The notes under the pieces were generated by a model. It was given only the letters and a program-made list of their open reading frames with translations. It was not told the DNA's origin and made no database searches. Position numbers and translations under genes: made by a program. From positions 1-64,000 of the forward strand of contig CAIRLC010000019.1 in NCBI GenBank assembly GCA_903879335.1: a DNA stretch of 64,000 nt, written 5' to 3'. The stretch is from an uncultured Pseudomonadota bacterium (GTDB lineage: Bacteria > Pseudomonadota > Gammaproteobacteria > Steroidobacterales > Steroidobacteraceae). Shown here piece by piece: positions 34,518 through 45,412 of the stretch; positions within the stretch are counted from its first letter, which is position 1; the number at the start of each line of letters is the position of its first letter.

Positions 34518-35249
34518 ATGATGGCGCTGGAATGGACAAGCCTGTTCAACCCCAATCCGACTGTTTCGACCATCGACTTATTCGATGGCCAGATCTGTGT
34601 GGTGCTGGACGACGTACTCAATGAACCCGATCGTTTAGTGGCGTGGGCGTCAAGTCGCGGGCCATTCACTCCGCCCAGCTACCCCTATCCGGGTCTCGTT
34701 GCCGATATCCCGCATCCCCTGCTTGCCGCGGCAAGCAACCACTTTGATCGGATGCTTCGCGATCGACTGGGCTATCGCCGCCAGACCGAGTCTCTGGTAC
34801 GACTTTCGCTGATGCAACAAGCCGCCAGTGCCTTACGGCCGATTCAATGGCTCTGCCACCGCGACCGAATTGCTGCGGATCCATCCCGCACAGGTTTCGC
34901 GGCAAGCGTCCTCTACCTTTTCCACGATCCCGCATTGGGCGGAACGGATTTTTATCGCCCGAAGCAATCACCCGCCGAGACCGATCAGTTGATCGCCGAC
35001 AGTCAGCGCTTAGACGCGACCAGCTTTAGCAAGCGTTACGGTCTGACCGGGGGTTACATGGCGCCGGATAATCCGTATTTTGAGCATATTGCTCGGGTTC
35101 CCGCTGCGTGGAACCGTCTGATCGCCTACGACGGCGGCGTCTTTCATTCCGCCGCCGTCGATAGCAGCACGCCACTTCACGCAGACCCGACCCGAGGGCG
35201 TTTGACGCTCAACGGGTTCTACACCTGCACCCGTCCGCTGCGTTCCTAA
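34518..35249 (+). CDS. DUF6445-like protein, putative 2OG-Fe(II) oxygenase-like
   Basis: QWLCHRDRIA...SVLYLFHDPALGGTDFYRP...GGVFHSAAVDSS...GRLTLNGFYTCTRP; HxD..H..R spacing. Confidence 0.65.
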   Translation: MMALEWTSLFNPNPTVSTIDLFDGQICVVLDDVLNEPDRLVAWASSRGPFTPPSYPYPGLVADIPHPLLAAASNHFDRMLRDRLGYRRQTESLVRLSLMQQAASALRPIQWLCHRDRIAADPSRTGFAASVLYLFHDPALGGTDFYRPKQSPAETDQLIADSQRLDATSFSKRYGLTGGYMAPDNPYFEHIARVPAAWNRLIAYDGGVFHSAAVDSSTPLHADPTRGRLTLNGFYTCTRPLRS

Positions 35250-35719
35250 CGGCAGTCGTCCGTCATGCCCTTATTCCCCATGGCCATCTGGGCTTGGCAA
35301 CGTGCCGAGTTCCGGGCCAACTCCCCCTGATCAAGCGCCTTGATACGTGCAGCTTCTTGCTTACGCGCAACCAATGCTTTCTTTGCGTTATCAAGATCTT
35401 TCTGCAAGCCGGGCGCATTGGCCGGCCGCTCAAGCACTGCCTGACGATCAGAACCGAGCGGTAGAATCGTGAAGAACGTGGTTTCGGCGCCGCTGGGCCA
35501 CACCGCCTTTACATCCGGCGTTTCGATTTTGCCTGCCGCCGGATCGCCCTTATAGGTGCGAGTCACGGGGCCAAGACCCAGCGACTGCCCACCTTCAAAA
35601 AACTCAGCACCGATCGGATTGGAGTCATAGGTGAGCGTGGCTTGGGTAGCGGGCGGCGGTGTGACGCAGGCCGCCAAGACAAGTGTTAATCCAGTCATCG
35701 TCAGAGTGAAGATTTTCAT
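35246..35719 (-). CDS. Putative lipoprotein of unknown function
   Basis: MKIFTLTMTGLTLVLAAC lipobox; 157 aa; same strand as the halogenase. Confidence 0.75.
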   Translation of the reverse strand: MKIFTLTMTGLTLVLAACVTPPPATQATLTYDSNPIGAEFFEGGQSLGLGPVTRTYKGDPAAGKIETPDVKAVWPSGAETTFFTILPLGSDRQAVLERPANAPGLQKDLDNAKKALVARKQEAARIKALDQGELARNSARCQAQMAMGNKGMTDDCR

Positions 35720-35728
35720 GATCTATCC

Positions 35729-37249
35729 TCAGGCTAATGGTTTAGCCGCACAGTGGTCAGCGATGAACTGAGCGTGCGTCGGCATGTAGTCCGTGCATGA
35801 TTCGATGACGCCCGCCACTTCATCGAGATATTTATCGATTTCAGACTCCGGCAACACGTCCGTCAACGGGTGGTGTGATTCAGCTTTTATTCTCTGGCCA
35901 TGCATCACCTGCAACCAGCTGACCTTGGTGAACAATTCATTTCCCTCCCGGAGAACACGGCCGTGACTACGGAACAGATCAATGCGCTGCTGCAAGGTCT
36001 CGGGCACATCCATCGTGCGGCAATAGTTCCAAAACGGCGTGTCGTCCCGTTCGGTTGCCTTGTAATGAAGAATGATGAAGTCCCTCACCCACTCGTATTC
36101 CCGCTGCATCACACGGTTGTATTCGGCGGTTGAGGCTGCGTCGAATCCTGCGTTCGGGAAAAACGTCAGCAGGTGGGCGATACCCATCTGAACCAGATGA
36201 ATACTGGTCGACTCCAGCGGCTCTAGGAATCCGCTCGCCAACCCGATGCTGACCACATTGCCTTTCCAGGTCTCGCGGCGTCGCCCCGGCGTAAAGGAAA
36301 TATGCCGCGGCGCGGCGAGCGACTCACCGTCTAAGTTACTCATCAGTATCGAGGTGGCCTCGTCCTGGCTCATGTAACGACTGGAATAGACATGCCCGTT
36401 GCCGATACGGTGCTGCAAGGGAATGCGCCATTGCCAACCCGCCGCGCGAGCGGTGGAGCGAGTATACGGAAGCAGGACGGGTGCGGACGCACACGGCACC
36501 GCAACGGCGCGGTCGCAAGGCAACCAATGCGTCCAGTCCTCAAAACCGGCCTGCATTGCGCCTTCAATCAGCAGCGCGCGAATACCCGAGCAATCGATGA
36601 ATAAATCGCCGTCCACTGTTTCGCCGGAGCGCAATTTGAGGCCAGTGACCCGGCTGCCATCCGCGTTCTTGCTGACCGACTCAATGAGGCCTTCAACGCG
36701 TCGGACACCGCGTGCTTCCGAAAATTTACGCAAATAGCGCGCGTAAAGCGACGCATCGAAATGAAAGGCATACGCGATCTGCGATAACGGCGACTTCGGC
36801 ATGTCGAGCTTCGGACGCATGAACTTGTTGTGCTTGCAGGCCATCGTATTGATGGAATAGGCATCCAGTTCTTTAGCCTTACCCGCCAAATACTGCTTGA
36901 GCCAGTATTGGTGGAAATCGACCGTCCAGGTGTCCTGGCCGATCGTGCCAAAGCCGTGCACATAACGATCGCCCAGCTGCCCCCAATTCACAAATTCGAT
37001 ACCGAGCTTGAAGGTGGCCTGGGTTTCACGCATGAAATCGTCTTCGTCGAGTTCAACCATTCGGTTGAATAACTGAATCATCGGAATCGTCGCCTCGCCG
37101 ACACCAATGGTTCCGATCTCTTCAGACTCGACCAACGTGATTGGATAACGACCACGCAGCACTTTGGACAGCGCTGCCGCAGTCATCCAACCAGACGTTC
37201 CGCCACCGACAATTACGATCCGCAAGGCAGACGGGTTAGAGGATTCCAT
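35729..37249 (-). CDS. Flavin-dependent tryptophan halogenase family protein
   Basis: VIVGGGTSGWMTAAAL; GVGEATIP; ATFKLGIEFVNW (catalytic Lys region); WQWRIPLQ (WxWxIP); SGFLEPLESTSIHL (catalytic Glu region). Confidence 0.93.
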   Translation of the reverse strand: MESSNPSALRIVIVGGGTSGWMTAAALSKVLRGRYPITLVESEEIGTIGVGEATIPMIQLFNRMVELDEDDFMRETQATFKLGIEFVNWGQLGDRYVHGFGTIGQDTWTVDFHQYWLKQYLAGKAKELDAYSINTMACKHNKFMRPKLDMPKSPLSQIAYAFHFDASLYARYLRKFSEARGVRRVEGLIESVSKNADGSRVTGLKLRSGETVDGDLFIDCSGIRALLIEGAMQAGFEDWTHWLPCDRAVAVPCASAPVLLPYTRSTARAAGWQWRIPLQHRIGNGHVYSSRYMSQDEATSILMSNLDGESLAAPRHISFTPGRRRETWKGNVVSIGLASGFLEPLESTSIHLVQMGIAHLLTFFPNAGFDAASTAEYNRVMQREYEWVRDFIILHYKATERDDTPFWNYCRTMDVPETLQQRIDLFRSHGRVLREGNELFTKVSWLQVMHGQRIKAESHHPLTDVLPESEIDKYLDEVAGVIESCTDYMPTHAQFIADHCAAKPLA

Positions 37250-37303
37250 AGGACTGACTCCGGCAAGTTCTAGGTGCTACTTTGCACCGAGTCCCTTCAA
37301 AAA

Positions 37304-37336
37304 AAAACCTCGCCGCGTTGCCGCAGCGAGGTTTTT
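37304..37336 (-). terminator. Rho-independent terminator downstream of the TonB-dependent receptor gene
   Basis: Stem AAAACCTCGC/GCGAGGTTTT flanked by A- and T-runs, so it could act in both directions. Confidence 0.85.
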
Positions 37337-37357
37337 ATCTACGTTTCTACCGAAAGA

Positions 37358-40162
37358 TTATTCGGCGAACTTGTAGAACACCTTAAGGGCGTAGGTCGCG
37401 CCCGTCTTGGTGTCATGCGGCGAGAACGTACCGTCGCCGTTCGGGCTCAGCTCCCGATAGACAGGCTTGTTCATGTTATTGCCTTCGAAGCGGATTCCGA
37501 GGCCCTTAGCTGGACCACTCTGCAGTTCGTAGCCGACCTGAGCCGACACCCACTTCTGAGGCGCGATGTACACGAGCGCTGGGTAGCCGCCGACGACCGA
37601 ATTGGAGACGCTGCCAACATACTGCGAGCGCTCGTTGTCCGCGATAAAGGCGCTGAAACCACCTTTTTCGAAGTACAAGATCGCCTTCTTATTGATGTGC
37701 GAGAGACCCGGCAACGGCATGGAGCCGGTGGTCGGCACCTGCTGCGACGGATTCAAGCCGATCAGGTTAGGCAGCGCGACCGAGCTCGTGGTTGACGAGA
37801 AGTTGGTCATCAAGCCGAAACCATCCAACCACGAGGCGATCATGCTGAACGGCAGCGAAGCCGACAGCTCGAGGCCCTTGATGTTGCCACCCGAGCCATT
37901 CACGGTCTGGGTGAAAATACCGCTGGTCGGGTTGACCCAGCCTGACGCGCCCAGCTGTGCCTCGATCGCCGTGAAGTCATAGTTCACGGTCGTCTGCGGG
38001 ACGATGTAGCTGTCAAGGTGCTTGTAGAATACCGCTGCACTGACATACGCCCGCGACTGGAAGTACTTTTCCAAAGACAGGTCAACGCCCGTCGCCTTGA
38101 AAGGCTTCAGGTGCGGGTTACCGGCCGATCCGACAACCAACGGCGTGCCGCCTGGGCCGGCGACTGCGTTAGCGCCACTGGTTGCTTCTGCCGCCGCCAA
38201 CGAGTTACGCAGATCCGTGAGCGTTGGACGCGCAATCTGCTTGCTCAATGCAAAGCGCAGCTTCTTACCGTCACCGAGATCGCCAGCCAAGTTCAAGGCC
38301 GGGAGGAAATCGGTGTACTTGGCGCCGTCCGAGGTCAATGTCCCCGCTGGGTTGGTGAGCGTGACACTCGAAGTGGCGTCCGCACGGTACCCGGCAGACG
38401 ATTGGTCCGTACGAACAATCTGGGTGCCGACGTTACCGCGAACGGGCATATCACCCCAGCGGGTGTCGATGTCCAACTTGACGTAGCCGGTCGTGACCTT
38501 CTCGGAAACCGTCCAGGTCTTCGATAAGATGTCGTCATTGTACTTGCGCAGGATCGACACGCCTGGGAACAGGCCGTCCTGCGGCGCATAGCCGAGAATA
38601 TCGAGGCCCGTGCCGCCGACGTTCGTCTGGACGAAGCTACCGCCTGGGAAAGCGACCGCGTCGCTGGCCACACCGCTCGACGGAACGATCAGACCTTCGT
38701 CCGTGATGCGCTCCTTCGAACGCTTCGTGTAATTCACGCCAAAGCGCAGCTGCGAGAACATACCGCCGCTCAGTTTATTGGCCAAATCGAAACGAACCGA
38801 CGTGATCTTGTCGGTGATCGTTGGGCCCTTGATGTAACCGGCCTGCGGGACACCGTTGATGCCGCTCCATCCCGTCACATCATGAATCTTCATGGTGTTC
38901 GGATCGGTCAAGCTGTCGCTGTAGCTCAGTTGCGGGGTGGCCGAAGTGCCGTTGGTGTAGGACATCTGCCCGGCCGTTGCCAGGCCGCCGTAGACTTCAA
39001 TGTCTTTCTCGACGCGCGTCGCCGTGTTCGTGTTGAGATCTAACGTCGCTGTCCAAGTGTCGGACAGCTTCAACTCGTTCTTCCAGCCGATCGACTTCAC
39101 CGTGTCGTTGTCGAACAGGTTTTCATCCTTGAGGATCACGTCCCAACCGCCGCCACCGCAGTAAGCGCAGTTCGAGATGATCGTACCGGAGTCAGCCGTG
39201 CTGCCGGCGGTCAACGAGTCGCCGCCGTAGCCGGTGACGCGCTGAACCGAGTTCTTGTTCGTGCCTATCTTACGCTTGGCGTAAAACGCGTCGACTTCAC
39301 TGCTGAAGTTTTCGTTCGGCTTGAACTCGAGAATGCCAACCGCGCTGTCCCGCTTGTCGGTCGTTAAGTCGGTCTCATAGTTCAGACCGCCAAACCATGG
39401 GTTGCTGACACTGCCACCACCAACCACCGGCAGCGTGCCGCCCCAGCTGCCGCTGGAGAGTTGGCTGCTGTTGCTGTCCGAGTGCACGAAGCCCACGGCC
39501 ACACCGACCGTATGGTCAGCAAACTGATCAATGATCGACAGCGTGTAGCGCTTGCCCTTGCCCTGTGTCGGAAGGCCGACGCCATTCTTGGTCTTTTCTG
39601 CCTTACCGTCGACGATCAGGCCGCGGTAGTTCAGTGGCTTGATCAATTGGTTGTCGATCGTGCCAGCCAAACCGGCCGTCATCAGCGATGAATCGCCCGA
39701 CTTGTAGACCGTCGCGCCGGCGATGAGCTCGGCCGGATAGATGCTGAGGTCGAGTGAGCGGCTGCTGTCCGTCGAGGTCTGCTCACGGCCGTTCAACAAA
39801 TAGCCGTTGAAATCCGGACCAAGGCCACGGATCGAGATGGCCGTCGCGTTACCGTAGCGGTCGCGCTGCGTCGTCACGCCCGGCAAACGAGCCAGGGATT
39901 CAGCAATCGTCGTGTCCGGCAACTTGCCGATGTCTTCCGCCGAAATCGCTTCAACGATAACGTCCTGGTCACGCTTGATCGAGATTGCATCCTCGATCGA
40001 CTTGCGAATACCAGTGACGACAACCTCCTCAAGCGGGCCGGCAGCCGGAGCCTGTTGGGCTGAAGCGGCGAAAGACAGCGCGAGGAGCGCGGAGCCTGCA
40101 GCGACCGGCGAAGCGGCGCGCAGCGTAAGAGCGATACGGGAACGCAGATTCAGCGTTGACAT
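37358..40162 (-). CDS. TonB-dependent receptor, maltodextrin-type
   Basis: EEVVVTGIRKSIEDAISIKRDQDVIVEAISAEDIGKLPDTTIAESLARLPGVTTQRDRYGNATAISIRGLGPDFNGYLLNGREQ; ends with aromatic beta-signal ALKVFYKFAE. Confidence 0.95.
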   Translation of the reverse strand: MSTLNLRSRIALTLRAASPVAAGSALLALSFAASAQQAPAAGPLEEVVVTGIRKSIEDAISIKRDQDVIVEAISAEDIGKLPDTTIAESLARLPGVTTQRDRYGNATAISIRGLGPDFNGYLLNGREQTSTDSSRSLDLSIYPAELIAGATVYKSGDSSLMTAGLAGTIDNQLIKPLNYRGLIVDGKAEKTKNGVGLPTQGKGKRYTLSIIDQFADHTVGVAVGFVHSDSNSSQLSSGSWGGTLPVVGGGSVSNPWFGGLNYETDLTTDKRDSAVGILEFKPNENFSSEVDAFYAKRKIGTNKNSVQRVTGYGGDSLTAGSTADSGTIISNCAYCGGGGWDVILKDENLFDNDTVKSIGWKNELKLSDTWTATLDLNTNTATRVEKDIEVYGGLATAGQMSYTNGTSATPQLSYSDSLTDPNTMKIHDVTGWSGINGVPQAGYIKGPTITDKITSVRFDLANKLSGGMFSQLRFGVNYTKRSKERITDEGLIVPSSGVASDAVAFPGGSFVQTNVGGTGLDILGYAPQDGLFPGVSILRKYNDDILSKTWTVSEKVTTGYVKLDIDTRWGDMPVRGNVGTQIVRTDQSSAGYRADATSSVTLTNPAGTLTSDGAKYTDFLPALNLAGDLGDGKKLRFALSKQIARPTLTDLRNSLAAAEATSGANAVAGPGGTPLVVGSAGNPHLKPFKATGVDLSLEKYFQSRAYVSAAVFYKHLDSYIVPQTTVNYDFTAIEAQLGASGWVNPTSGIFTQTVNGSGGNIKGLELSASLPFSMIASWLDGFGLMTNFSSTTSSVALPNLIGLNPSQQVPTTGSMPLPGLSHINKKAILYFEKGGFSAFIADNERSQYVGSVSNSVVGGYPALVYIAPQKWVSAQVGYELQSGPAKGLGIRFEGNNMNKPVYRELSPNGDGTFSPHDTKTGATYALKVFYKFAE

Positions 40163-40563
40163 AAGCGTTGAGCCTCCCAAAGGATAAAACGCGGAAAAAC
40201 CATCGATCCAAAAACAAAAACGACACGGCGCTCGCGCAACGTATCGGCTTGGCTTAGCTCAAGAAATGATTGCGGCGTCACGCGCCGAGACCCCCCTCAA
40301 ACCATCGCCCGACGAGCGTCTGATTGCGCTCATCATTTTTATTACCGCTGCAATCGGAACTGCGTCGGTGTTCGAAAAATTATGCGAAAAAATTCATTGT
40401 TTTGCAATATCGCCGCCGTCTAACTTTCCCGTTGTTAAATGTTCGAGTGAGAAAAGCCATTTAACTGCATGTATTAACGCATTATTTTTAATATTTGTTG
40501 CCCAATAACAACACATGAAAGCGGAAATATGTTGCAGCGCTTATGAAAATTAATGCAAAAACT

Positions 40564-41586
40564 CTAGGCGCCGCAGGTTTCGCGAACCACTAAGTCCGTT
40601 GGCAAACGCTCTGAACGCAGGCTCGATGAGTCGCCGCTGAGCAGCTTAGACAGAAGCAACCGCCCTGCGAGCGCAGTGTCCTGGCGCACTGTCGTCAATG
40701 CAGGACGAGCGTAACGGGCAAACGGAACGTCGTCATAGCCGACGACAGAGACGTCGCCGGGAACAGACTTACCTGCTCGCTCAAGTGCCCGGATAGCACC
40801 GAGCGCGATCAAATCTGAGGCCGCAACGATGCCGTCGAAGGCCACTCGGCGCGCCATGAGGGCATCGATCGCGGCCTCTGAGGCCTCCAGATCAAACGAT
40901 GAAGGCACTGAGAGCGAGGGATCGACGCTCAAGCCCGCATCCTGCAACGCGGTTAGGTATCCCTGATGCCGCTGCGCAGACTCGGGGGCCTCCGTATCGC
41001 CTAAGAACACGATTCTGCGCCGACCGAGGCGCGCGAGGTGTAGGGTCGCACGACGGCCACCCAATGGGTTATCGCTGCCCACCGAGCAATACAGCTGGTT
41101 GGGAATTTGCGCCCCCCAAACGGCAAAGCGGGTCGACGTTTCGGCCAATTGGTTATAGGCCGCATGCAATGAACTTTGGCCCAGAAAAATGATACCGGTG
41201 GCGCGATTGGTGGCCATAAGCTGGGCGAGGTCCGCTGGACCCGACGGCGCCAAATGAGACACGATAAAGTCGCAGCCTCGCTGACGGGCCGCCTCACCGA
41301 GACCCGCGACCAATTCCAAGGTAAATGGATCGGACAAACGGGCATCTCGCCCCTGCGGTCGCGGAATGACAATCGCAACCGCAGCGGCTGCGACGGTGGG
41401 TCCGGCCGGCATATAGCCTCGAAACGGGTAGTCGTGCTCGCGCGCCAATTTCCACAGCAACTGCTTCGTCTGCTGGTTGACCGCAGGGCTATCGTTGAGT
41501 GCCCGAGAAACGGTGGTTATGGATACGCCAGCGAGGCGAGCCAAATCCTCCAAACGTGTATTTCGCCGAACGCTCACGCAATCCAC
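40564..41586 (-). CDS. LacI-family transcriptional regulator
   Basis: TRLEDLARLAGVSITTVSRALNDSPAVNQQTKQLLWKLA HTH; periplasmic-binding-like C-terminal domain. Confidence 0.96.
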   Translation of the reverse strand: MDCVSVRRNTRLEDLARLAGVSITTVSRALNDSPAVNQQTKQLLWKLAREHDYPFRGYMPAGPTVAAAAVAIVIPRPQGRDARLSDPFTLELVAGLGEAARQRGCDFIVSHLAPSGPADLAQLMATNRATGIIFLGQSSLHAAYNQLAETSTRFAVWGAQIPNQLYCSVGSDNPLGGRRATLHLARLGRRRIVFLGDTEAPESAQRHQGYLTALQDAGLSVDPSLSVPSSFDLEASEAAIDALMARRVAFDGIVAASDLIALGAIRALERAGKSVPGDVSVVGYDDVPFARYARPALTTVRQDTALAGRLLLSKLLSGDSSSLRSERLPTDLVVRETCGA

Positions 41587-41871
41587 CCCCTGTAATGGGC
41601 CGCGATTCTACGTCTGCCCACACCGCCACAGACAACATTTTTTCATTTTTTTTTCATCCGTCTACGTCCACAGGTCATCTTCAACCAGCAGATTTGAGAT
41701 TGTTTTTTATGACTTTTATTCCGAAAAAGCAGACAGCCGCTTCACTGACTCACCACTTCAGATAGGCAATCGCATATTTTTGCAATTTTTAGATCAGCCT
41801 CCCGGCACTCGCCGTGCGGCATGGCTTCGTGCACCATCCGTGGTTGGCGATCGCCATCAGAGGGGGAATGC

Positions 41872-43947
41872 ATGAAAAACTGGCTGCTCGTCTTAGCAGG
41901 AATCTCGGCTTTCAGCGCCGTGCGGGCTGATTCGGCTCCAGGCACCGCGCTGCCGAAGGCACCCACCGTGAGTGTGTCGTCGCCCAATCAGGTACTCACC
42001 GTCGAAGTCACCGAGTCCGACGGCTTTCCTGTCTATCGAGTGCTTCGCTTTGGCAAACCGGTTATCGGCTATTCCCATCTGGGCTTTGTGCTCAAGGATG
42101 CCGGCAAGCTCGCCTATCAACTGCATGTCGTTGCACCGACCGAGGCGCCACACGGCGTGGACGAAACGTGGGAGCAGCCGTGGGGCGAGCGGCGCTATAT
42201 CCGGAACCATTACTCTGAACAAACCGTTCGACTCACAGAGCCTAAAGGTCTTAGGCGTGAGCTCGAAGTCATCGTCCGGGTTTACGATGACGGAATTGGC
42301 TTCCGATACGCTTTCCCCGACCAACCGCAACTCCATGACGTCGTGATTGCTGACGAATTGACTGAATTCAATATCGTCGATCCGGCCACCGCTTGGTGGA
42401 TGCCATGGGGTGAATCGCATGACACCGAGTTGGTCTACCAACGAACGGCACTCAGCGAGCTGAGCACGTCACACACACCGCTCACCTTAAGAACGAAGGA
42501 CCACGTGCACATTGAGATCCACGAAGCGGCATTGGTGGATTTCGCTGGCTTCTATGTCCAACGTATCGATGAGCAACACTTGCGGGCCCATTTAGTGCCC
42601 GCATCCGAAGGTTGGGCGGCAAGACGTACAGCCCCCTTTAAAACTCCTTGGCGAATGATCGCGATCACGGACAGTGCGGGCGCACTCTATGAATCGAATC
42701 TTGAGCTGAACCTAAATGATCCGAATGTACTGGGCGACGTATCGTGGATTCAGCCAGGGAAATTTCTAGGTATTTGGTGGGAAATGTTCCACGAGGATTG
42801 GACGTGGGCGTCGGGCCCCAAGCATGGTGCAACGACTGAACACGCGAAGCGCTACATTGATTTTGCAGCCAAACACCACTTTCGCGGACTGCTGATTGAA
42901 GGTTGGAATGTCGGCTGGGATAGCGAGTGGGCAGGAGACGGTTCGTCATTTAGCTTCACCGAAGCGTATCCCGACTTTGATCTTCCAGCGATCGCTGCTT
43001 ACGCGCGCGCCAAGGGGGTCCACATCATCGGGCATCACGAAACGGGCGGTGACATATCAAATTATGAAGCGCAAATGGGCTCAGCCTTCGATCTGTACCA
43101 GTCTCTTGGTATTGATGCGGTTAAAACTGGCTATGTCGCCGACGCCGATCAAATCCACCACAAGGCCGTACTCGGCGCCAATCGGACGGAATGGCACGAC
43201 AGCCAATACATGGCCAACCACTACCTCACGGTCGTGAAAGAAGCGGCTAAACGCCACATCATGATCGACTCTCATGAACCGATCAAAGACACGGGCCTGC
43301 GTCGCACGTACCCGAATTGGCTTGCGCGCGAAGGTTCTCGCGGTCAGGAATACAACGCGTTCGGTGTTCCCGTTAATCCACCAGAGCACGAGACCAATCT
43401 AGTCTTCACGCGAATGCTCGGCGGTCCGATGGATTTCACACCAGGCATCTTTGATCTGAAGCATATCCGACCGTGCTGCAGTGTTCCGACAACACTTATG
43501 AAACAGCTTGCGCTGTACGTCGTGCTTTACAGCCCAGTGACAATGGCTGCCGATCGCATCCAAGCCTATGAAGCCCGCCCGGATGCATTCAAATTCATAG
43601 AGGACGTACCGACCGACTGGTCTGAGACGCATGTGATCAATGCTGAAGTGGGCGACTATGTCACGATCGTTCGCAAAGATCGTCACACCGACAATTGGTA
43701 TCTCGGTTCGATCACTGATGAAAATGGACGTTTGCTCCCGATCTCCTTAGGGTTCCTCGAACCAGGCCGCCACTATCGCGCTGAGATCTATCGCGATGGC
43801 GCGAAGGCTCACTGGGATCAAAATCCTTACGACTATGTGATTGAATCCCGGGACGTCACGTCCACCGAGAAATTGGAATTGCGACTGGCGCCCGGTGGCG
43901 GTGAGGCCATCCGTTTTGTCGCCGAACCAATCGCCAAGCAACATTAA
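41872..43947 (+). CDS. GH97 family alpha-glucosidase, inverting SusB-like
   Basis: Signal peptide; HHETGGDISNYE, DAVKTGYVAD, SHEPIKDTGLRRTYPNWLAREGSRGQEYNAF, PPEHETNLVFTRMLGGPMDFTPGIFD; RBS AGGGGGAA. Confidence 0.92.
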   Translation: MKNWLLVLAGISAFSAVRADSAPGTALPKAPTVSVSSPNQVLTVEVTESDGFPVYRVLRFGKPVIGYSHLGFVLKDAGKLAYQLHVVAPTEAPHGVDETWEQPWGERRYIRNHYSEQTVRLTEPKGLRRELEVIVRVYDDGIGFRYAFPDQPQLHDVVIADELTEFNIVDPATAWWMPWGESHDTELVYQRTALSELSTSHTPLTLRTKDHVHIEIHEAALVDFAGFYVQRIDEQHLRAHLVPASEGWAARRTAPFKTPWRMIAITDSAGALYESNLELNLNDPNVLGDVSWIQPGKFLGIWWEMFHEDWTWASGPKHGATTEHAKRYIDFAAKHHFRGLLIEGWNVGWDSEWAGDGSSFSFTEAYPDFDLPAIAAYARAKGVHIIGHHETGGDISNYEAQMGSAFDLYQSLGIDAVKTGYVADADQIHHKAVLGANRTEWHDSQYMANHYLTVVKEAAKRHIMIDSHEPIKDTGLRRTYPNWLAREGSRGQEYNAFGVPVNPPEHETNLVFTRMLGGPMDFTPGIFDLKHIRPCCSVPTTLMKQLALYVVLYSPVTMAADRIQAYEARPDAFKFIEDVPTDWSETHVINAEVGDYVTIVRKDRHTDNWYLGSITDENGRLLPISLGFLEPGRHYRAEIYRDGAKAHWDQNPYDYVIESRDVTSTEKLELRLAPGGGEAIRFVAEPIAKQH

Positions 43948-43960
43948 GGCGATCAACACC

Positions 43961-45412
43961 ATGCTCAACATTCAGCGGACCAAATCGACGTCCTTTCTTG
44001 CGCTCTTGGCTCTACCCGCAACCGCCATGGGTTTTGCGCTATCGGTGCAGATTTCAGCGCTATCTTGGATTCTCACGACCCGATATGGTTTACATATTGA
44101 AGAGATCGGATTGGTTTGGGCAGCAGGACCTATTGCCGGGATTCTCGGACAACTCGTTGTCGGACTCTTCAGCGACGATGTGTGGCTGTGGGGCGGACGA
44201 CGACGCCCGTTCATTTTAATCGGCGGGATACTGACAGCGCTGATGTTACTGGCGCTGCCGAATATCGGTTTGATCAGCCGGGCCTTGGGATTCGAATCTA
44301 TTTTAGGTGTCGCCATTGCAGTCGCACTTGCCTTAGACCTAGCCGTGAACGTGAGCTTTAACCCAACCCGGTCAATCATCACTGATCTGACTGATGACGG
44401 CACTGAACGCACCCGCGGTTACACACTTATGCAGACGGTCTCGGGCAGTTTTGGTGTCTTGGCTTATGGCATCGGCGCAGTCTGGGATAACTACGCGCTC
44501 ATTTATGCGGGCGTGGTACTCGTTCTGATCTTTTCCTGTTTTCCTGCGGCCGTCCTCACAGAACCGCGGGTTTTGCACTCGGCGCAATCTACACAGGCAA
44601 CACCATCCAAGGCCCTCGGCAAGATCTTGTGGATGCTATTACCGTTGTGGGGTTTTTTGACCTACGACTTGATCGCGGTGGGCTGCAAGATGGCCGGCAT
44701 CACTCGTCCGTCCCACTGGCTAGAATTCACGGCCGCGGCCATGACGATCGTCTGTCTCGGGGTAACCTTACTATCTCGCGACCGAGGACCCGCTCACGTG
44801 CGCGAAGATTTGATTGAATTTCGCAAAATTCTCGGTGCTCATGCATTTTCATGGATTGGGGTTCAGGCCATGTTTGTCTACATGATCGCCTTCGTGCAAC
44901 AGCGATTCCCGGCCTTAGATGCAAAGAGCGGCGGTCAAATGCTGTCGACGGCCTTTTTTATCTTATCGGTCGTTGCGGCCCTACTGCCATCGACAGTCCT
45001 GGCACCGATGGCTCGCCGCTTTGGCGCAACTCGCGTTCACGTGGGTTGCCTAATTGTGATGGCTGCTGCCTATGCATTGGCCTATGTGTATGGACACACC
45101 GCGTTTGCAGTCTATGGCGTGATGGCGCTCGCCGGGATCGGCTGGTCTGCAATCGTGAGCCTGCCATTTGCCATCATGTCGCAGCGCGTGGATGAATCCC
45201 ACATTGGTCTCTTCATGGGGATCTTCAACTTATCCGTCGTACTGCCTCAGTTGGTGGCGAGTCTCGGCATCGGCACACTGGTCGCGCTGCTGCCCGATAA
45301 GGGCGGCGTGTTTTTGGTCTCAGCCGTCTCTCTGACCATTTCCGCGGTCTGTTGGCTCTTCGTACGCGCCGACACTGCACACGCTGTGACGGCGACGACG
45401 ATTCGAGACTGA
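43961..45412 (+). CDS. MFS sugar transporter, SLC45/GPH-like
   Basis: AGPIAGILGQLVVGLFSDDVWLWGGRRRPFILIGG; IGLFMGIFNLSVVLPQLVAS. Confidence 0.88.
   Translation: MLNIQRTKSTSFLALLALPATAMGFALSVQISALSWILTTRYGLHIEEIGLVWAAGPIAGILGQLVVGLFSDDVWLWGGRRRPFILIGGILTALMLLALPNIGLISRALGFESILGVAIAVALALDLAVNVSFNPTRSIITDLTDDGTERTRGYTLMQTVSGSFGVLAYGIGAVWDNYALIYAGVVLVLIFSCFPAAVLTEPRVLHSAQSTQATPSKALGKILWMLLPLWGFLTYDLIAVGCKMAGITRPSHWLEFTAAAMTIVCLGVTLLSRDRGPAHVREDLIEFRKILGAHAFSWIGVQAMFVYMIAFVQQRFPALDAKSGGQMLSTAFFILSVVAALLPSTVLAPMARRFGATRVHVGCLIVMAAAYALAYVYGHTAFAVYGVMALAGIGWSAIVSLPFAIMSQRVDESHIGLFMGIFNLSVVLPQLVASLGIGTLVALLPDKGGVFLVSAVSLTISAVCWLFVRADTAHAVTATTIRD

Follow-up and report, generated by a model that had tools for sequence, protein, structure and literature searches.

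A candidate surface-loop tryptophan target for a flavin-dependent halogenase encoded beside a TonB sugar receptor

The receptor-halogenase locus

The window studied here is a 64,000-nucleotide stretch of DNA from an uncultured member of the Steroidobacteraceae (contig CAIRLC010000019.1, positions 1 to 64,000), and the subject is a four-gene unit within it, in which a flavin-dependent halogenase is encoded next to a TonB-dependent receptor. The genes and their association are real, and the enzymes belong to known families. What is new is a specific candidate residue for modification, Trp438 of the receptor, and a probable function for the DUF6445 protein; the idea of a peptide substrate has itself been published.

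The receptor gene (37358–40180, minus strand, read from a TTG; an ATG lies at 40162) encodes a TIGR01782-type protein (509.6 bits, cut-off 310) with a Plug domain, related to alpha-glucan receptors. It is followed in line on the same strand, after a gap of 108 bp, by a PF04820 halogenase of the Xcc4156/BrvH group (35729–37249, 655.8 bits), and after a further 9 bp by a lipoprotein-like open reading frame (ORF) of 157 residues with a Leu-Ala-Ala-Cys lipobox (35246–35719). The DUF6445 gene (34518–35249, plus strand; PF20043, 205.7 bits) is convergent and shares its last 4 bp with the 3' end of the lipoprotein gene. An earlier annotation made from the sequence, here called the original prediction, had named these four genes and the halogenase motifs GGGTSGW, WQWRIP, ATFKLGIEF and EPLEST, and all of them were confirmed.

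The halogenase carries its flavin adenine dinucleotide (FAD) motif, GGGTSGW, at residue 15, in agreement with the GxGxxG pattern. The Lys of ATFKLGIEF, K81, was kept in 102/102 aligned relatives and the Glu of EPLEST, E346, in 101/102; for the WxWxIP motif (WQWRIP), W272 was kept in all 102 and W274 in 101 of the 102. Because the catalytic Lys and Glu are nearly invariant, halogenase chemistry is apparently under selection, and from these residues we propose that the chemistry is intact and the enzyme FADH2-dependent. The closest solved structures were Xcc4156 (6y1w; 537 bits, E 6e-160), 9luq and BrvH (6frl; 482 bits, E 2.6e-143), with matches to Xcc4156 and BrvH spanning nearly the whole protein. 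The free-tryptophan halogenases of the RebH, PrnA and Thal types scored at most 293 bits, so the Xcc4156/BrvH group is the closer one. The original prediction had grouped the enzyme with halogenases assayed mainly on indoles, and its closest solved relatives are of this kind: PMC5945002 and PMC7336383 describe Xcc4156 and BrvH as accepting indole, as failing to halogenate free tryptophan, and as having open active sites that may take peptides, the native substrates being unknown. By kinship to these two enzymes, the window halogenase probably has an open active site as well. No signal peptide was seen in the halogenase by eye.

In 27/27 homologues of the DUF6445 protein H113-x-D115, H209 and R227 were invariant, matching the HxD...H iron ligands and the Arg for 2-oxoglutarate (2OG) of 2OG-Fe(II) oxygenases. 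The AlphaFold2 model (predicted local distance difference test score, pLDDT, 92) and its fold matches point to a double-stranded beta-helix; 2OG-Fe(II) oxygenases made up nearly all of the leading PDB fold matches, a bacterial prolyl hydroxylase among them, with modest scores and E values of about 1e-3. A PDB sequence search with the same protein gave nothing relevant. DUF6445 is thus a probable 2OG-Fe(II) oxygenase, to judge from its invariant residues and modeled fold. In the 2OG superfamily, the Asp of the HxD motif points to hydroxylation rather than halogenation. The lipoprotein-like ORF gave no Pfam or NCBIfam match and belongs to an uncharacterized family; Trp74 (in AVWPSGA) and two C-terminal Cys residues were invariant among 12 aligned homologues.

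The unit is flanked by profile matches to three GH13 proteins, GH97, two MFS sugar transporters and LacI, i.e., it lies in an alpha-glucan locus. The LacI-family regulator (40564–41586, minus strand) matched LacI and Peripla_BP_3, and the GH97 glycosidase (41821–43947, plus strand) carries the GH97 domains. An MFS ORF at 43841–45412, when read from its TTG, shares about 100 bp with the GH97 gene; translation probably begins at an internal ATG instead. Beyond these flanks lie debranching-, branching- and phosphorylase-like ORFs, named from reading the sequences only. A LacI operator was sought in the intergenic regions, and no convincing shared palindrome was found.

Recurrence of the gene association

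The order receptor, halogenase, (lipoprotein), reversed DUF6445 gene was repeated in the closest homologous loci, which indicates that the arrangement is more than chance. Genes in these loci were called by codon usage, as longest-ORF-first calling had yielded antisense artifacts. Some homologous loci lack the lipoprotein gene, the DUF6445 gene or both, so that these two are frequent but not obligatory partners.

The association was then counted in 60 genomes of the same family, the Steroidobacteraceae. Halogenases were present in 19/60 and DUF6445 in 7/60, all seven of them halogenase-bearing. In the 19 genomes with halogenases, a TIGR01782 receptor lay no more than 6 kb from 59/98 halogenases, against about 2.3 expected; conversely, 36/88 TIGR01782 receptors had a halogenase at that distance or closer (2.6 expected). 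Of the 11 DUF6445 genes, 10 had a halogenase within 6 kb, against an expectation of 0.36, and of the 13 SapC genes, 12 did (0.35 expected). The expected counts are approximate, as they assume random placement, and the observed excess was more than 10-fold. The recurrent halogenase-receptor-DUF6445 unit of the original prediction is thus borne out by linkage above chance. As for DUF6445 itself, its role as a common neighbor of the halogenase stood, but it is no longer an undefined partner, given its invariant residues and fold.

The window genome has four halogenases and one fragment at a contig end. Besides the enzyme studied here, one (C22) lies with a receptor, a tetratricopeptide repeat (TPR)-2OG oxygenase, a melibiase and GalK/GalT-like genes, the last identified by reading; a second (C5) lies with a carboxypeptidase-regulatory-type receptor and an ATP-binding cassette (ABC) importer; and a third (C13) has GH3 and LacI as neighbors at the end of a contig. 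The sugar genes thus vary between loci while the same enzyme type and receptor stay paired, and from this we infer that the substrate is more probably a protein than a sugar-linked molecule, with loci of the L076 type as an exception.

Several other arrangements were seen. In 12/13 cases SapC (PF07277) adjoined both a TIGR01782 receptor and a PF04820 gene, and the halogenase subtype found with it was typically a second, diverged one. Four genomes (G010, G031, G044 and G048) carried 10 to 15 PF04820 genes or fragments each, often in tandem and of differing subtypes. Galactoside loci showed, next to a receptor-halogenase pair, a further oxygenase partner, namely a TPR protein whose C-terminal domain is a 2OG-Fe(II) oxygenase (L098:14204–15745, by Pfam; L022:5203–6687, by resemblance). 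In six Oxalobacteraceae loci (L067, L071, L076, L078, L082 and L084) a halogenase and DUF6445 lay beside an ABC sugar importer, with GH16 and GH3 in L076, and no TonB receptor in the stretch examined; the halogenase there may have a different partner. The 2OG-FeII_Oxy_5 family was considered as a general partner and rejected, being found in most genomes with or without halogenases and adjoining them only occasionally. Literature searches, whose coverage was partial so that novelty is unproven, yielded nothing published on DUF6445, nor on a pairing of halogenases and TonB receptors in carbohydrate loci.

Receptor Trp438 and halogenase linkage

If the enzyme modifies the receptor, then receptors linked to it would be expected to have a residue in common, one that their unlinked relatives are free to lose. 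Receptors were compared in a set made up of 35 linked and 52 unlinked members from the family and 49 from a halogenase search; linked and unlinked receptors were interspersed in the tree. The candidate residue is Trp438 (counted from the TTG at 40180; Trp432 from the ATG at 40162; TGG codon at 38867–38869, minus strand), in the loop HDVTGWSGING, around HDVTGWSGINGVPQ. It was the sole invariant Trp among 50 aligned receptors, and in the window receptor clade it is constant within hypervariable sequence. The AlphaFold2 model of the receptor (pLDDT 81.6), which has fold matches to TonB receptors, puts Trp438 in a long loop between strands 376–399 and 454–469, and since long loops alternate with short turns in the strand list, this loop is probably extracellular.

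In the combined set, in which linked means beside this halogenase type, Trp was present at column 438 in 72/72 linked receptors versus 5/21 unlinked ones. Pagel's test of correlated evolution between Trp438 and linkage gave a likelihood ratio test statistic of 20.7 (p=0.0004); once the rows retrieved by way of the halogenase were removed, p was 0.002. The control columns W246, W366, W376 and Y884 were not significant in the same test. Of the 115 columns that linked receptors conserve, three, G247, P512 and W438, were the only ones mostly lost in unlinked in-clade relatives. One linked receptor without Trp438, K_L133, was recoded as unlinked because its divergently transcribed halogenase is of another subtype; coding it as linked gave p=0.004 in an earlier set. 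The loop alignment is uncertain for the outgroups, whose residue differs between alignments. A possible second W-G site, W246-G247 (39440–39445, minus strand), lies in another long loop, and its G247 is mostly lost in unlinked in-clade receptors; it was set aside as weak, with p=0.02, or 0.23 without the halogenase-derived rows.

A group of receptors, L206–L211, came from a receptor search made irrespective of halogenases. L206–L208 lie in GH97/GH13 loci with no adjacent halogenase; no PF04820 match at E 1e-30 was found in one of their genomes, and each of the others has one or two at other places. Together with the unlinked receptor U_L164 they form a well-supported clade, whose placement next to the linked alpha-glucan clade is poorly supported. 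The loop was deleted in all four of these receptors (LTN-TIYGSGYGK versus LTDVQGWGGG...QAGYSK), and the linked receptors L209–L211 retained the Trp. In a further set drawn from plasmid records, GW[GS]G or SWGG was found in 8/8 receptors beside the window halogenase type, and neither motif in one receptor beside another halogenase subtype and SapC. Receptors of the L098 and L094 types carry NNW[GS] in their halogenase-linked members; of one halogenase-less homologue found for each type, one was without the motif and the other had an aligned Trp.

On the enzyme side, 59/59 halogenases paired with Trp438-clade receptors formed one clade (support 0.89). When paralogues were added, this clade also took in enzymes from ABC-type loci and enzymes paired with a few other types of receptor; Trp438 receptors are thus not its only partners. 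An all-pairs Mantel comparison of halogenase and receptor distances gave r=0.68 (0/999 permutations), with species relatedness as a confounder.

A number of observations weigh against modification of the receptor at Trp438. Within genomes, halogenase and receptor distances were uncorrelated (r -0.05, 33 pairs). No single Trp is common to all linked TIGR01782 receptors, other linked receptor clades are without Trp438, and a general enrichment of W-G motifs in linked receptors was not significant. Contrary to expectation, two Sphingomonadales alpha-glucan receptors of the plasmid set retain the Trp although no halogenase lies within 20 kb of them, and the unlinked receptors U_L178, U_L181 and U_L192 retain it too. 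Loci of the L076 type have a halogenase, DUF6445, GH16 and an ABC importer, and no receptor within 10 kb. The column was picked post hoc among 115, so that a strict correction would bring p near 0.04, and the signal consists of one shared origin and about two losses.

Candidate substrates and known systems

We tentatively propose that the cytosolic halogenase modifies its partner receptor, probably at Trp438, a reading that comes close to an even chance and stays below it. The receptor is favored as the target because linkage is above chance, enzyme and receptor stay paired across sugars, Trp438 correlates with linkage, and the loop is deleted in some alpha-glucan receptors without an adjacent halogenase. 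A peptide-type substrate is favored because the closest relatives refuse free tryptophan and have open sites suited to peptides (PMC7336383, PMC5945002). The support from Trp438 is correlative and moderate, and the modification is a candidate. The original prediction, that the native substrate may be a receptor, peptide or sugar-linked molecule rather than free tryptophan, thus gains correlative backing as to the receptor, and nothing favors a sugar-linked small molecule.

The unit would then comprise an alpha-glucan uptake receptor and its own modifying enzymes. The halogenase would act in the cytosol on the receptor chain from the neighboring gene. Action before export has a precedent in QhpG, a halogenase-like flavoprotein that oxidizes peptidyl Trp in the cytoplasm before export (PMC7876137). 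The suggested modification is halogenation of Trp438 in a D-x-x-G-W-[GS]-G loop that would later lie on the cell surface, and DUF6445 may add a second oxidation in the same system. The purpose of the modification might be to tune sugar contact, to alter an exposed loop, to protect an exposed Trp, or to change recognition by phages or toxins. The full scheme, in which a halogen is put on a surface-loop Trp of the partner TonB sugar receptor before export, the 2OG oxygenase is the second modifier, and the role of BrvH and Xcc4156 is thereby answered, is doubtful when taken as a whole.

The strongest alternative is that Trp438 serves ligand contact or structure in a single receptor clade, that the co-inherited halogenase acts elsewhere, and that the correlation reflects shared ancestry of the locus. 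Trp often contacts sugars, and both the single shared origin and the Sphingomonadales receptors that keep Trp agree with this explanation. Loss of the whole loop from receptors in GH97/GH13 loci without a halogenase, and the lack of such a correlation at other conserved Trp columns, argue against it, and we regard it as possible but somewhat unlikely.

A small-molecule substrate, e.g., an aromatic or indolic compound imported or made alongside the sugar, would fit the fact that the characterized close relatives were all assayed on small indoles (PMC5945002, PMC7336383). Weak indole activity, however, made the authors doubt indole as the native substrate, and the loci carry various sugar genes with no aromatic pathway gene among the neighbors searched; this explanation is unlikely. 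Equally hard to favor is another co-encoded or cell-envelope protein as substrate, either the lipoprotein, through Trp74, or a binding protein in ABC-type loci. The lipoprotein gene follows the halogenase closely, its Trp74 is invariant, and halogenase loci without a receptor exist, but no lipoprotein homologue was detected in many loci with the same halogenase type, which leaves this substrate improbable. A further alternative is that the PF04820 protein is a QhpG/LodB-like protein-Trp monooxygenase, rather than a halogenase, that works with the 2OG oxygenase. A weak similarity, below cut-off, to the models of QhpG and LodB, which oxidize or mature protein Trp, and the frequent adjacency of a 2OG oxygenase speak for it. 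It is nevertheless very improbable, since the Lys, Glu and WxWxIP signatures of halogenases are almost always conserved and close relatives halogenate in vitro (PMC5945002).

BrvH, Xcc4156 and their relatives have structures and in vitro activities and no known job. If halogenation of the receptor is correct, many annotated tryptophan halogenases, which reach up to 15 copies per genome in the family, would have protein modification as their task, and a halogen mark, undescribed as far as literature searches show, would be present on outer-membrane sugar receptors. The native-substrate question is narrowed to one candidate residue.

Among known systems, MalA-type maltodextrin receptors and the XCC2469 carbohydrate utilization (CUT) locus (PMC1790865) share with the window TonB-dependent alpha-glucan uptake and similar enzyme neighbors; the paper on that locus mentions no halogenase. 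The 2OG-Fe(II) oxygenases EvdO2 (4xac) and prolyl hydroxylase (5iav) have the fold and the HxD...H...R residues of DUF6445, at only 10–14% identity and with TM-scores of about 0.4–0.5. QhpG and LodB, flavoproteins acting on protein tryptophan, belong to a fold family related to the window halogenase, but against their NCBIfam models the latter scored 21.3 (cut-off 240) and 19.5 (cut-off 400) bits, respectively, so that it is not a member, and it keeps the halogenase signatures. MibH (5uao), of the PF04820 type, takes a Trp in a peptide as substrate (PMC7336383), but is more distant from the window halogenase than Xcc4156 and BrvH (196 versus 537 bits) and serves a lanthipeptide pathway. The window halogenase shares HGFGT with Xcc-b100-4345 (table of PMC8269204) and has the same catalytic residues as Xcc4156 and BrvH. 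Whereas the passages searched of the Xcc4156 and BrvH papers leave a TonB receptor context unmentioned, the window enzyme has a receptor as its neighbor and a candidate residue in that receptor.

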